This document shows positions 19,107 through 41,325 of a DNA stretch of 64,000 nt, piece after piece. Every line of letters begins with the position of its first letter. The first letter of the stretch is position 1. A model generated the notes under the pieces. That model did no database searches. It was not told the origin of the DNA and saw only the letters and a program-made list of their open reading frames with translations. The DNA comes from Gracilimonas mengyeensis (GTDB lineage: Bacteria > Bacteroidota > Rhodothermia > Balneolales > Balneolaceae): assembly GCF_900182705.1 (NCBI RefSeq), contig NZ_FXTP01000011.1, positions 120,833 through 184,832 on the forward strand, given 5' to 3'. The translations under genes were made by a program, and so were the position numbers.

Positions 19107-19137
19107 TCTGTAACATTTTACTTACTCTTTACTCTTG
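19107..19137 (+). promoter_or_regulatory. Promoter of the pseudopilin-like operon
   Basis: TCTG-N19-TACTCTTG fits the Bacteroidetes-type sigma-A pattern TTTG-N19-TANNTTTG in spacing and in most positions. It lies 33 bp before the ATG at 19170. The wider sequence TGTAACA-N13-TTACTCTTGTATAC is repeated exactly upstream of the third small-RNA unit (minus strand, around 40225-40260) and nearly so at the other two. TGTAACA also resembles -35 elements of some ECF sigma factors, an alternative reading. Confidence 0.6.
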
Positions 19138-36691: not shown

Positions 36692-38932
36692 TTGAAAACA
36701 CTGTTTATTCATATTCTGTTTTTGGCAGGAGTATTCTCTTCGGGGAATGCTCTGGCCGAAGACAGTTACCTTTTATCCGGATTTATAACTGACGCAGAGA
36801 GCGGCGAACCTGTCTCTTTTGCCTATGTTCATATAGAAGAACTAAATCGAACCGCCGTTGCTGATGCCGACGGTTACTATGAAATTAAAAACGTACCTGC
36901 CGGCAATTTTACTTTGTCTATCCACCGAGTGGGTTATCGTACCCAAACGCGAGAAATTGCCATCAAAGAAAGCGACCAAACCATTCATATTAAATTAAAA
37001 CCAACGGTTTTAGGTTCTCAATCAGTAGATATTGTGGGCATGGCCGACAATATGGAAGGCTCGAATCTGCAGCATGCATCCAAAAAAGTGATGGGTTCGG
37101 ATTTACGCCGCAATCTGGGAAACACCTTATCTGAAACGCTCTCCAACTTACCCGGTTTTGATGAACGGAGTATGGGCAGTGCGCCAGGACGTCCCGTAAT
37201 TCGAGGCCTGGGGGATGAACGCGTACTTATTTTACAGGATGGTGTTCGTTCCGGGGATGTGTCGGCACAATCGGCCGATCATGCCGTAACCATCGATCCG
37301 ATCTCAGCCCAGGAAGTAGAAGTAGCCCGTGGTCCACAGGCGCTGGCTTATGGTGCCAATGCCATAGGCGGGGTGATCAACGTGGTGCGCAACCAGATTG
37401 AAACCAGTGTGCCATCCCGTACACATGGCAGCCTCACCCTGAATGGAGAGTCCGTCAATACTGGTTTTTCAGGTGCCGTGGATGCCACCATTCCTTATAA
37501 AGATTTTGCCTTAAGCCTAAATGTAAATGGCCGGCTGGCTAATAATGTATCCACTCCGCTGGGCGAAATTAAGAATACCTATTACGAATCCACTAACAAT
37601 GCAGCCGGACTTAGTTGGGTTCAAGACTGGGGGTATGTAGGCGGAGCTTTTAGCAGCTATTTCAATAACTACGGCATCCCGCCCGATCCGCAAGGTCATC
37701 CCAACGGCGTAGATATTGAAATGGAAAAATTTCAATATGATGGTAAAGCGGAATTCCTGGTTCGCAACAATTTCCTGAAAGTGATTGAAGCCGAGATTTC
37801 TCTTAAAAACTACACGCATAAAGAAATCGAATCGAACGGCAGCTTAGGCACTCAGTTTGGCCTGGTAACGACTAATGCTGAAATCAAAGCCACGCATAAT
37901 TCATTGGGTTTTCTCGATAGCGGAACTTTTGGTATTTGGAGTGAAGTGGAAGATTATGCAGTGATCGGTTCCAGCACGCCGGATGCCAACAGCTATAAAA
38001 TCGGCTCTTATCTGATTGAGGAAGCAAATATGGGCAAATTGCACCTCGAAAGTGGATTACGTTTTGACTGGGTACTTAACAAACCGGTTGATAACGAACC
38101 TAACTCCTCTATTGGAAACATCCGCGAACGTAGTTTCCCTGCTTTATCAAGCTCTTTTGCAGCAATCTACTCATTAGGCAATGGACTTTCAGTTGGAACC
38201 AGTCTATTGCATTCTTTCCGTGCTCCTTCACTTGAAGAACTCTATTCTGAAGGTCCGCATCTGGCGTCTTATTCATATGAAATTGGAAATCCTGAGCTGG
38301 AACCGGAACGAGGATTGGCTAAAGAAATATTCATCCGGTATCAATCACAGCGTGCAAACGCCGAAGCTGCTGTTTTCCATAATGGCTTTAGCAACTACTT
38401 GTATGCCCGGGATACCGGCAGGCCCAGCAACCGTTTTCCCGATTTAAACACTTACCAGTTTGTAGGAGCCAATGCGGAATTATACGGGGTTGAGTTTTCC
38501 GCGGAGGTTCAACTTCTACGGCACATTGTAGCTGACGGCAGTTTTAGCTACACCATTGCAGAACGCAAAGTACCAGATGAAGAGCAAGAGGCAACGGGCT
38601 ACGAAAATAATACACGCCCCCTGCCCCAGATCCCACCAATGAAAGCACAATTTGGGCTTAAGTACACTAAGAGTGGCTTTGAGCTTGGTTCCCACGTAAG
38701 ATTAGCCGCTGACCAAACACGGACCGGTGAATTCGAAACGCCAACTGAAGGCTACACGTTGGTAGACACTTTTGCCCAATATCGCCTGGAAGGTAAATCT
38801 TTGATGCACACCTTTTCCCTGAACATCAACAATCTGCTGAACCAGGAATATTACAATCACTTATCACGTATCAAAGATTTGCGTCCGGAGCCCGGTATTA
38901 ATGTGAGCTTGCTATACCGGCTTTATTTTTAG
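36692..38932 (+). CDS. TonB-dependent outer-membrane receptor (probable metal uptake)
   Basis: The 746-residue protein has a signal peptide, an N-terminal carboxypeptidase-like regulatory domain (about 25-110, SGFITDAESGEPVSFAYVHI), a plug (about 125-235, with VIRGLGDERVLILQDGV) and a 22-strand-type barrel. The last strand ends with aromatic residues (LLYRLYF). The start is a TTG one base after the lipoprotein stop, so it is translationally coupled. The upstream His-rich proteins, and an overall resemblance to ZnuD-type receptors, suggest zinc or copper uptake, but no Zur or Fur box is obvious. The substrate remains inferred. Confidence 0.88.
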   Translation: MKTLFIHILFLAGVFSSGNALAEDSYLLSGFITDAESGEPVSFAYVHIEELNRTAVADADGYYEIKNVPAGNFTLSIHRVGYRTQTREIAIKESDQTIHIKLKPTVLGSQSVDIVGMADNMEGSNLQHASKKVMGSDLRRNLGNTLSETLSNLPGFDERSMGSAPGRPVIRGLGDERVLILQDGVRSGDVSAQSADHAVTIDPISAQEVEVARGPQALAYGANAIGGVINVVRNQIETSVPSRTHGSLTLNGESVNTGFSGAVDATIPYKDFALSLNVNGRLANNVSTPLGEIKNTYYESTNNAAGLSWVQDWGYVGGAFSSYFNNYGIPPDPQGHPNGVDIEMEKFQYDGKAEFLVRNNFLKVIEAEISLKNYTHKEIESNGSLGTQFGLVTTNAEIKATHNSLGFLDSGTFGIWSEVEDYAVIGSSTPDANSYKIGSYLIEEANMGKLHLESGLRFDWVLNKPVDNEPNSSIGNIRERSFPALSSSFAAIYSLGNGLSVGTSLLHSFRAPSLEELYSEGPHLASYSYEIGNPELEPERGLAKEIFIRYQSQRANAEAAVFHNGFSNYLYARDTGRPSNRFPDLNTYQFVGANAELYGVEFSAEVQLLRHIVADGSFSYTIAERKVPDEEQEATGYENNTRPLPQIPPMKAQFGLKYTKSGFELGSHVRLAADQTRTGEFETPTEGYTLVDTFAQYRLEGKSLMHTFSLNINNLLNQEYYNHLSRIKDLRPEPGINVSLLYRLYF

Positions 38933-38961: not shown

Positions 38962-39090
38962 GACCTCACCTAAATCCTCTCCTTTATAAGGAAAGGATTT
39001 TTCGTAGTAACTAAAAGTTCTGTAGCCAATCATATTTTAGATGTACATCAAAGCGTCCTCCTCCTTACCAAGGAGGAGACAGAGGAGGTC
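38962..39090. repeat. R3 dispersed element, copy a
   Basis: This 129-bp unit starts GACCTCACCTAAATCCTCTC and ends AAGGAGGAGACAGAGGAGGTC, with imperfect terminal inverted repeats. Inside is a hairpin with TCCTCCTCCTT/AAGGAGGAGA. A second copy lies 110 bp downstream (39200-39323), and a third at 63316-63443. It is non-coding. It resembles the small palindromic repeats common in Bacteroidetes-like genomes. Confidence 0.75.
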
Positions 39091-39199: not shown

Positions 39200-39323
39200 A
39201 CCTCACCTAAATCCTCTCCTTCACAAGGAGAGGACTTTTCGTAGTAACTAAAAGTTCTGTAGCTAATCATATTTTAGATGTGCAGCAAAGCGTCCTCCTC
39301 CTTAAGGAGGAGACAGAGGAGGT
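39200..39323. repeat. R3 dispersed element, copy b
   Basis: This 124-bp copy is about 90% alike copy a over its whole length, sharing CGTAGTAACTAAAAGTTCTG and ATCATATTTTAGATGT. The hairpin arms differ by compensatory changes (TTTATAAGGAAAGG versus TTCACAAGGAGAGG), hinting that the folded form is conserved. Confidence 0.75.
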
Positions 39324-39384: not shown

Positions 39385-39497
39385 ATAAAAAAACCCCGGA
39401 AGTATCCGTTCCGGGGTTATTGTTAGGTTTCAGCTCATTTAAGGAGTAAGATGAGACTAATTTGTTTTGGGTATAAACATTAATCTATCCTATAATC
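39385..39497 (-). ncRNA. Candidate small RNA, unit 1 of 3
   Basis: The predicted transcript is about 113 nt on the minus strand. A promoter-like TACTCTTG box (39504-39511) is followed by a variable 5' part. Next comes a 7-bp hairpin AG(U)CUCAU/AUGAGCU whose 12-nt loop reads CUUACUCCUUAA, then GCUGAAACCUAACA, and finally an intrinsic terminator AACCCCGGAA-7 nt-TTCCGGGGTT with seven T. The loop contains CUCCUU, the anti-Shine-Dalgarno core of 16S rRNA. Two further copies at regular spacing of about 360-370 bp conserve the hairpin and the terminator structure. Confidence 0.55.
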
Positions 39498-39755
39498 TGT
39501 TTACAAGAGTATCTCGCCCCCCTATTTGTTACACTTTTTTTTGAAAAAAATTTTCGAATTCTTCTGAGAATTATTTTTCGGCCTATAACCAATTTAAACA
39601 GTGTTTTAACCCAAAAAAAGAACTCCGTTATTTGAAACCACTATCCAGAAAGTTCACTTTTTTTAAAACACTGATTCATCAATTTGTGCTTAAATGTTCG
39701 AAGCGTACCAATTTTTTCTTTAAACACATTAAATAAGCCCGTAAAAAATCAGGAG

Positions 39756-39868
39756 CATAAAAAAACCCCGGAAGTATCCGTTCCGGGGTTATTGTTAGGT
39801 TTCAGCTCATTTAAGGAGTAAGATGAGACTAATTCGTTTGGGTATAAACATTAATCTATCCTATAAGC
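39756..39868 (-). ncRNA. Candidate small RNA, unit 2 of 3
   Basis: This copy is nearly identical to unit 1 from the promoter box (39875-39882) to the terminator (39757-39790), including the loop CUUACUCCUUAA and the same terminator stem. The DNA between units 1 and 2 is unrelated to the DNA between 2 and 3, so only the transcript and its promoter are conserved. A plus-strand open frame of 89 codons starting inside this unit (39823) is considered spurious. Confidence 0.55.
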
Positions 39869-40112
39869 TGTTTACAAGAGTATCTCGCTCCCCATTTGTT
39901 ACACTTTTTTTGAAAAAAAATTCTAAAAATCAGAAACCGCCCTTATATGCCCCTGAAGTGCGTTTTTTTTTAGAAAAAAATGGTAGCCTTTTTAGGCGAT
40001 CACTTTTAAAAAGAACGAATAGAAAAAACTCAGTGCTCACTATTTGTGCCGGAGTTGTTCTAATGCCCAAAGTTTTATCTCTGAAATATTAGATCCACCA
40101 AAAACTTCAAGC

Positions 40113-40224
40113 ATAAAAAAACCCGGAGGGTTCAAGTCCGGGTTTCTATGTTAGGTTTCAGCTCATTTAAGGAGTAAGATGAGACTAACTGTTAGGGTAT
40201 AAACATTAATCTTTCCCTATAAGC
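40113..40224 (-). ncRNA. Candidate small RNA, unit 3 of 3
   Basis: This is the most diverged copy. The hairpin and loop are fully conserved, but the terminator is AACCCGGA-9 nt-TCCGGGTT instead of AACCCCGGAA/TTCCGGGGTT. Both arms have changed together, which supports selection for the terminator on this strand. Its promoter TGTAACA-N13-TTACTCTTGTATAC is identical, in bases and spacing, to the promoter at 19107-19143 of the pseudopilin-like operon. Confidence 0.55.
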
Positions 40225-40452
40225 TGTATACAAGAGTAATCAGCACCCGATTTGTTACACTTTTTTTTTGAAAAAATTTTTTAAGATCGAAAAATGAGCC
40301 TAAATCCTTAAAAAGGATGACCTAAAAGGTCTTCAACAATCTATTTCATCATCTCTTAGCAATAAAACCTGCAAATCCCGCCATACCATTTCCCGGGCTT
40401 CATTTGAACCTCAAAAAGTATACCTTTGGATAAATCAAGTTACCAATTTACC

Positions 40453-41325
40453 ATGAAGCCAACATATTGCAAGCGTACCCCTTTTTATTTACTTCTCCTT
40501 TTGCTGCTTACTTTCACAGCCTGCAGCACCATCAACTCTCTTTCCAACAGTGTCAGCAAGCCGGAGCTATCCGTTTCTGATGCTTCTGTTACTCACCTGA
40601 GCCTTCAGGATATCGAACTAACTTTCGATATAGCCATCAACAACCCAAACCCGGTTGCCGTTAACCTGGCCGACTACAACTACGACTTCCAGCTTAACGG
40701 TCAGTCATTTATAACCGGTGATCAGATTGAGAAAACAGAAATTCAAGCTTCCAGCTCCAGCACTATACAGGTGCCAGTCCGCTTTGGTTATCGCGAATTG
40801 TATGATCTTTTTACCAGCCTCAGGGATAAAGATGAAACCAGCTATGATTTTCTTTTCGAGGCCGGTATCAATGCGCCGGTTATTGGCCGCCTGAATGTAC
40901 CAATAGAAAAAAGTGGAACGCTCCCGGTTATTAAACTGCCAAAGTTAAGCATCAAAAATGTTGCCCTTGAAAACCTTTCGCTTACCAAAGCCGATGTAGA
41001 GGTAAACCTCATTATTGACAACCCCAACGCTTTTGACCTTAGCTTTTCGAATTTCAATTACAACCTGAGCTTGAACGATACCTCCCCTATAAGCGGAACT
41101 ATGGATCAAGCCATACACATCAATCAAAAATCTGAATCTGAAGTGACCGTACCCATTAGTTTAAGCCTGCTTGAGATGGGAGCTGCCCTCCAAAGCGTGC
41201 TAAGAGGCGGCGATGATATTGAATACAGTCTGGAGGGCAGTTCCACGGTAGATGCCTCCCTTCCCCTGTTTTCCCCTTCAACCTTTAACTTTGACCGAAG
41301 CGGCCTGGTTAACATCCAACGCTAA
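40453..41325 (+). CDS. LEA type 2 (WHy-domain) lipoprotein
   Basis: The product from ATG 40453 is 290 residues. The open frame extends to a TTG at 40426, but this ATG gives a compact lipoprotein signal (FYLLLLLLLTFTACS with Cys near 24). Two WHy/LEA14-like beta domains follow: one with FDIAINNPNPVAVNLADYNY, the second with VNLIIDNPNAFDLSFSNFNY. The paired N-P-N-x signatures are diagnostic. Such proteins are desiccation- or stress-associated in plants; in bacteria they are lipid-anchored envelope proteins of unknown role. It appears to be followed by ogt, 27 bp downstream. Confidence 0.85.
   Translation: MKPTYCKRTPFYLLLLLLLTFTACSTINSLSNSVSKPELSVSDASVTHLSLQDIELTFDIAINNPNPVAVNLADYNYDFQLNGQSFITGDQIEKTEIQASSSSTIQVPVRFGYRELYDLFTSLRDKDETSYDFLFEAGINAPVIGRLNVPIEKSGTLPVIKLPKLSIKNVALENLSLTKADVEVNLIIDNPNAFDLSFSNFNYNLSLNDTSPISGTMDQAIHINQKSESEVTVPISLSLLEMGAALQSVLRGGDDIEYSLEGSSTVDASLPLFSPSTFNFDRSGLVNIQR

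Follow-up and report, generated by a model that had tools for sequence, protein, structure and literature searches.

Three tandem units on the minus strand of the window, by which we mean the whole stretch of 64,000 nucleotides of Gracilimonas mengyeensis DNA that was analysed, are almost certainly genes for a small RNA (sRNA), and they belong to a family that is absent from Rfam and usually occurs as one copy at one conserved place. Comparison of related genomes inclines us, by a modest degree, to view them as members of a Balneolaceae sRNA family that is likely transcribed by an ECF-type sigma factor and predicted to pair through CUCCUUA, an anti-Shine-Dalgarno (anti-SD) sequence, with AAGGAGU in mRNAs, the mRNA of hpf (ribosome hibernation factor) being the leading candidate in this genus. 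The features of the locus are as follows.

39385..39533, minus strand: unit 1, predicted promoter to terminator T-run (model R1 match, 127.4 bits)
39757..39903, minus strand: unit 2, predicted promoter to terminator (model R1 match, 133.6 bits)
40111..40259, minus strand: unit 3, predicted promoter to terminator (model R1 match, 136 bits)
39504..39533, minus strand: ECF-type promoter motif of unit 1, TGTAACA-N16-ACTCTTG (motif search)
39875..39903, minus strand: ECF-type promoter motif of unit 2, TGTAACA-N15-ACTCTTG (motif search)
40231..40259, minus strand: ECF-type promoter motif of unit 3, TGTAACA-N15-ACTCTTG (motif search)
39439..39450, minus strand: anti-SD stretch CUUACUCCUUAA of unit 1, predicted seed (CUCCU kept in 48/57 members)
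39811..39822, minus strand: anti-SD stretch CUUACUCCUUAA of unit 2
40167..40178, minus strand: anti-SD stretch CUUACUCCUUAA of unit 3
39392..39418, minus strand: terminator stem-loop of unit 1 (stem covaries across the family)
39764..39790, minus strand: terminator stem-loop of unit 2
40119..40145, minus strand: terminator stem-loop of unit 3, stem sequence changed (unit alignment)
36692..38932, plus strand: TonB-dependent receptor gene, convergent neighbour and synteny marker (Pfam PF00593; found by tblastn in 34/54 sRNA loci)
40453..41325, plus strand: LEA_2 domain gene, divergent neighbour and synteny marker (Pfam PF03168; in 22/54 sRNA loci)

The units are direct repeats (n = 3 in the window) with start-to-start spacings of 372 and 356 bp and a mean column identity of 91% in an alignment running from promoter to terminator. 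On the minus strand all three have in common an upstream box, the block TTAGTCTCATCTTACTCCTTAAATGAGCTGAAACCTAACA, which is identical in 3/3 units, and a terminator with a T-run, and no match between the spacers is longer than 16 bases. An earlier note on this DNA had described three minus-strand units with intrinsic terminators and unconserved DNA between them, all of which holds; its promoter box is likewise present in every unit, but the note had given it no type, and we recognise it as the ECF-type motif. The sole open reading frame of at least 60 aa that overlaps the units is an 89-aa plus-strand frame (39823-40092), and the genes that flank the units on both sides lie on the opposite strand. 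A scan of the window against Rfam 15 gave no matches at the gathering threshold; at E <= 10, sub-threshold matches over the units fell far below the cut-offs and none was credible. In the open-licence PMC literature we found no description of such an RNA in Balneolaceae.

The structural evidence centres on the terminator. Among 20 aligned members, which all contain TGTAAC, CTCTT, ACTCCT and CT.AA, the terminator stem has eight consensus pairs, seven of them with changes on both sides, and it is the only structure that RNAalifold found. Within the window itself the stem is re-sequenced in unit 3 (AAACCCGGA...TCCGGGTTT versus AACCCCGGAA...TTCCGGGGTT), and the argument for selection on RNA structure that had been drawn from these paired changes is borne out by the compensatory changes in the wider alignment. 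The 7-bp hairpin with CUUACUCCUUAA as its loop has to be given up: judged by eye, CUCAU/AUGAG makes a stem of 5 bp, the probability predicted for it in the whole transcript is 0.04 in unit 1 and 0 in the other two units, and AUGAG occurs at that place in 0/17 aligned relatives. What survives of that proposal is the sequence, as CUCCU is conserved outside the locus, but a conserved hairpin that presents it as a loop is not supported. Altogether, the observation made in the earlier note is partly confirmed and its interpretation partly supported; the note had missed the connection to a sigma factor, how rare SD sequences are in this genome, a second conserved block following the anti-SD, and the candidate target.

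Conservation outside the locus, which that note had itself proposed as a test, was followed with R1, a covariance model built from 20 sequences. At E <= 1.3e-6, 55/128 genomes of the order match, distributed as 55/92 in Balneolaceae (f1) and 0/36 in the sister families. Weaker matches, up to E 0.1, raise the tally to 81/128, sister families included; many of those inspected were promoter-only or terminator-led, and the weak matches were set aside. Among 296 genomes of the phylum there were 33 matches at E <= 0.001, 32 of them in Balneolaceae, and the only one outside the family (G356:C337:7268-7403) is weak, with an E-value of 1.3e-4. A blastn search of 57 genomes likewise returned strong matches in all nine further genomes of the genus, with weaker matches in Balneolaceae of other genera. 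The conservation of the units is far beyond chance. In the NCBI taxonomy Gracilimonas stands in Balneolaceae, phylum Balneolota, beside Bacteroidota.

Counts of conserved blocks were taken over 57 members from 55 genomes and 17 genera, with the matches of genus g4 (G108, G110, G012, G111) and weak second matches in G017 and G068 left out. Every member opens with TGTAAC (57/57). The anti-SD CUCCU lies in the core of 48/57, upstream of a CUGAA-like block that is present in 56/57; AACCUAA occurs in 49/57 and exact UGAAACCUAA in 34/57. The nine members that lack CUCCU come from six of the eight g17 genomes (L132, L136, L138-L141) and from G067, G070 and G010 (L134 and L135 in g6, L137 in g2), and UGAAACCUAA is kept in 6/9 of them. 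In five g17 genomes CCCUU stands in place of CUCCU and could, judged by eye, pair with AAGGGG near the RNA's own 5' end. This pattern of conservation argues that two blocks are under selection, namely the anti-SD and, following it, the CUGAA...CCUAA block.

The anti-SD stretch is probably the pairing seed. Its median predicted probability of being unpaired is 0.70 over the 48 members, versus 0.47 for all sequence segments. Units 1 and 2 reach 0.77 and 0.94, unit 3 has 0.27, and the remaining genomes of the genus lie at 0.33-0.56; in g5 and g13, where the stretch is mostly paired, the value drops to 0.10-0.12. In units 2 and 3 the predicted partner of AUGAGCUG is instead CAGCUUAU, near the 5' end, and unit 1 shows this pairing in part (0-0.55). 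That long-range stem (CAGC...GCUG) folds better with its own than with a swapped partner in g19 (-10.3 vs -6.6) and g1 (-7.8 vs -6.4), with hardly any gain in g9 and g20 and no such stem in g6, g11 and g14, so that it was rejected as a family-wide feature; inside the genus, the long-range and inner stems vary too little for a covariation test.

The promoter motif connects the units to a sigma factor. With a spacer of N{14,19}, the TGTAACA-N15-ACTCTTG-type motif occurs at 11 places in the window's own genome, three of which are the units, and nowhere in the reversed control. Over ten genomes of the genus there are 69 matches versus 0 reversed, over nine genomes of other Balneolaceae genera 7 versus 2, and over 12 sister-family genomes 0 versus 2. 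Two of the matches in the own genome flank a further locus.

L099 4425-10375: sigma locus with sigma gene, CHAT-TPR protein and TPR protein, promoter motifs at both ends

Its products are a 189-aa ECF-type sigma factor, a 247-aa protein with C-terminal TPRs, which from its position and N-terminus we take to be the anti-sigma partner, and a CHAT-TPR protein; the juxtaposition of a CHAT domain and an ECF sigma factor points to a signalling or protease module. With 42.8 vs 42.9 bits for TIGR02937 and 20.6 vs 21.1 for PF07638, the sigma protein falls narrowly short of both cut-offs. In 8/9 genus genomes with a sigma orthologue the motif is found on the opposite strand, at a distance of 263-267 bp from the first sigma residue of the alignment, and in G004 the nearest motif is 4.6 kb from the sigma gene. 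The matching motif precedes the neighbours of the sigma gene, not the sigma gene itself. Further matches precede a pilin-like protein (by eye), a histidine kinase and an operon-like run that includes a T9SS-sorted protein. Within the window, one more ECF-type motif (19109-19137, plus strand) lies 32 bp before a 140-aa open reading frame without a Pfam match, which heads a same-strand run of small membrane-protein-like frames.

Inheritance points in the same direction. Sigma orthologues were called at E <= 1e-47, a cut-off chosen post hoc, at which 1e-45 gives the same table and 1e-48 shifts one genome. By this measure 51 of 90 family genomes have both sRNA and sigma orthologue, 35 have neither, three have the RNA only and one the sigma gene only, so that presence agrees in 86/90. 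The RNA-only genomes are G009 (83% complete), G083 (57%) and G020 (partial hit), and the sigma-only genome is G103 (76% complete); G016 has the sRNA and lies outside the sigma search set. Among 66 good-quality genomes the corresponding numbers are 44 with both, 21 with neither and one with RNA only. The association has p = 2.5e-20, in a statistic that ignores phylogeny; the stronger argument is that presence and absence differ within genera (10 and 2 in g6; 7 and 20 in g19, one discordant). As the motif flanks the sigma gene and both are inherited together, the units are likely transcribed by that sigma factor, and it is probable, judging from these genome comparisons, that this linked ECF-type factor controls the sRNA. 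An sRNA tied in this manner to an alternative sigma factor, and co-inherited with its gene, would be of interest in a broad Bacteroidota group.

To our knowledge, anti-SD seeds have mostly been described where SD sequences are common, and where specificity must then come from elsewhere. In 464 kb of the own genome, with the first ATG of frames of at least 150 aa taken as the start, which may lower the numbers, AGGAG lies at -20..-4 in 8/294 genes and further upstream in 1/294, and AAGGAG at -20..-4 in 5/294. When up to four starts were tried per frame of at least 80 aa, AAGGAG or AGGAGG was found at 17/365, cases that include a spurious frame antisense to unit 2, and hpf. The 3' end of 16S still reads GGATCACCTCCTTTC. 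In these respects the genome resembles, by analogy, those of Bacteroidia, whose ribosomes are reported to hide the anti-SD, with strong SDs retained at a small number of genes, rpsU among them (PMC9976891, PMC8710568, as far as the parts of these papers used here extend). The rpsU gene carries the extended SD GAAAGGATGTGATAC in 10/10 genus genomes (L317-L326), with a pairing to the 16S tail of about -15 kcal/mol; as a target of the sRNA it was rejected, since this extended SD fits 16S (-14.9) and not the sRNA (-7.6). Because SD sequences are rare, the anti-SD seed could act selectively, and the proposal that the RNA binds AAGGAG sites is retained with its global activity recast as a selective one. 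In an SD-poor genome, the same anti-SD seed could serve as a precise address.

Among the possible addressees, hpf is the best candidate in the genus, although it is weakest in the window's own genome. Its product is identified as HPF/YfiA by TIGR00741 (49.3 vs cut-off 40.9) and PF02482 (61.7 vs 23.7). The pattern TTAAGGAGTN{2,9}ATG has 42 matches in ten genus genomes, three of them being the antisense of the units, versus 67 in the reversed control; it stands at the start of orthologous hpf in 8/10 of these genomes, and no other gene recurs in more than two genomes among the 30 pattern loci read. The remaining two hpf starts read ATTAGGAGT (G005) and ATAAGGAGT (G000, the window's own genome). 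Genome-wide, TTAAGGAGT before ATG is below the reversed control. With the sRNA of its own genome, the hpf start is predicted to pair at -12.1 to -19.7 kcal/mol in 10/10 genus genomes, as compared with -7.4 to -8.3 kcal/mol with the 16S tail, which makes rpsU its mirror image; the genus mean of the duplex is -15.0 kcal/mol with the own partner versus -10.4 with the hpf starts of other genera, and in G008 the complement is contiguous over 14 bases (UUAAGGAGUUAGAA). Ranked against the ortholog groups around it, hpf comes first (-14.1, next -10.1, z -4.5), in a comparison of 45 groups from five or six genomes and a small region round hpf, with hpf chosen before the ranking.

Other numbers are less favourable. 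Ranked by seed pairing, hpf comes 20th among the 349 genes sampled in the own genome, and the window's own units reach -12.1 with hpf versus -11.7 for swapped partners, with 16/33 swaps as good. The hpf 5' region was read for 70/83 genomes with an hpf match. Over 15 genera, the own pairing is clearly better than swapped in four (g1, g6, g10, g13), slightly better in four (g12, g14, g18, g19) and weaker in seven (g3, g5, g7, g9, g11, g17, g20), which led us to reject hpf as a family-wide target; in all genera together, the sRNA pairs with hpf better than the 16S tail does in 33/45. Relatives without the sRNA still have a strong hpf SD, so this SD is not there for the sRNA alone. We regard it as evenly balanced, on predicted pairing, whether hpf is a true target in the genus.

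A sigma-driven, trans-acting sRNA whose main target is something other than hpf, either other mRNAs (e.g., those of envelope proteins), an RNA or a protein, is accordingly the alternative that survives best, and we consider it possible though the less likely reading. Its seed might be CUCCU or else the block behind it, whose CUGAA-like and AACCUAA parts are just as well conserved (56/57 and 49/57 members respectively). In its favour, UGAAACCUAA persists in six of the nine members without CUCCU; the seven genera in which hpf pairs better with a swapped partner speak for it too, as do 12 nt fully complementary to the seed at the start of a gene for a 564-aa chemotaxis receptor with a Cache domain in the own genome (L116 7577, minus strand; G000:C7:172574-172591). 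Against it stand the prominence of hpf over its 45 control groups and the outcome of the two patterns searched genome-wide, of which one pointed to hpf and the other, TTAGGTTTCAG, showed no excess over the reversed control, so that the second conserved block was rejected as a seed in that search. Outside the units the seed 12-mer itself has two matches, as many as in the reversed control. In both G006 and G005, a 303-aa protein that looks universal-stress-like by eye has TTAAGGAGTCTTATTATG (L173, L184).

The arrangement of the locus bears on whether a free RNA is made at all. At least one of the four neighbours of the window locus is present, by tblastn, at 53/54 sRNA loci (TonB receptor 34, LEA_2 22, methylguanine-DNA methyltransferase 33, amidohydrolase 40), from which we conclude that the sRNA loci are orthologous. 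Most of the 55 genomes have one strong match, and the unit is usually single-copy. Tandem triplication is not supported as a feature of the family: adjacent strong copies are found only in the window's genome G000 (three) and in G068 (two). In G009 a second copy lies on another contig, and the own genome has no further whole-unit copy elsewhere. The position of the units between the TonB receptor gene and the divergent gene, together with their strong terminators, would suit cis elements that act as terminators or attenuators between neighbouring genes and release no trans-acting RNA; yet each unit has its own promoter motif, with TGTAAC in 57/57 members, 17 genera conserve a core that lies outside the terminator, and the unit stays while its neighbours vary, which together make this reading improbable. 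Even less probable is a tiny coding gene, for which an SD-like AGGUGAG before AUG UUU AUA CCC UAA (MFIP-stop) can be read by eye in most of the genus (G001 and G003-G007), but units 1 and 2 have a longer frame, G008 a shifted one and other genera none, and within the genus these bases belong to a predicted stem that does not vary. A mobile or repetitive element, as the three tandem copies and the other palindromic repeats next door might suggest, is the least tenable reading and largely refuted by synteny, given one copy at an orthologous place in nearly all relatives that have the unit and no other whole-unit copy in the own genome.

Returning to a sigma-driven sRNA that acts on hpf, we infer the following course of events. 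Once released, the sigma factor would read the ECF-type motif, and the sRNA would be made and accumulate, the extra unit copies in G. mengyeensis presumably raising its dosage. Its CUCCUUA would then pair in trans with an SD-like AAGGAGU in the ribosome-binding sites of those few mRNAs that have one, occluding these sites and blocking translation. Synthesis of HPF would fall, along with that of a few other AAGGAGU mRNA products, and lower HPF might keep ribosomes out of hibernation during the sigma response. This would create a possible link between an ECF response and ribosome hibernation. We speculate, in a broader and decidedly more tentative form, that in a nearly SD-less lineage an ECF-sigma sRNA could mimic the anti-SD tail and constitute a heritable module that controls ribosome hibernation through a few SD-like mRNAs.

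Of the known systems, the family would by analogy work most like LhrC, with its multiple copies, envelope-stress control and CU-rich sites that cover SDs. LhrC of Listeria monocytogenes is described as having five near-identical copies, being induced by cell-envelope stress and blocking the SD of its targets with CU-rich motifs (PMC4132741, in the portion of that report used here). Both systems combine several near-identical copies, three in the present case, with a C/U-rich motif complementary to SD that is mostly predicted to be unpaired. They differ in phylum, in control (the two-component LisRK for LhrC, a linked sigma factor for the units) and in motif, UCCC in LhrC and CUCCUUA here, and the units are without an Rfam match.

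Enterobacterial Sigma-E represses through the sRNAs RybB, MicA and MicL, and the general layout, an ECF sigma factor acting via an sRNA, is the one predicted here, with a different sequence, seed and phylum. The CcsR1-4 or 'cuckoo' RNAs of Rhodobacter carry anti-SD loops and thus constitute, like the present family, a group of homologous sRNAs with an anti-SD-like sequence, in their case tied to the stress response; Alphaproteobacteria use SD sequences more widely. CcsR RNAs originate by processing from the 3' UTR of ccaF1 mRNA (PMC8625941, as far as the part used here goes), whereas the units have their own promoter motif and terminator, and a ccaF1-like 3' UTR origin was not found for them, the flanking genes on both sides being on the other strand.

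Closer in lineage, the rpsU regulation by an extended SD resembles our proposal in its selective use of strong SDs where SDs are scarce; according to the sections of the report used here (PMC9976891), the ribosome reads the SD there, and in our case an SD would be covered by an RNA that copies the anti-SD. Rfp18 of Flavobacterium psychrophilum is another conserved sRNA of the broad Bacteroidota group with predicted mRNA pairing, but it belongs to another class, has metalloprotease mRNAs as predicted targets and is not described as ECF-driven or anti-SD in the passages of its report on which we draw (PMC9723704). For Bacteroides, ECF sigma factors and sRNAs are reported separately, at least in the part of the source used here (PMC7366714).

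Beside unit 1 the window also holds two copies of a palindromic repeat (38963-39075 and 39200-39312, both plus strand), whose sequences were found, among 326 loci, only in own-genome copies of the same place. The second copy carries CCTCCTTAAGGAGGAG and contains TTAAGGAG, which is complementary to the sRNA seed, so that a transcript running past the 3' end of the receptor gene could bind the sRNA.
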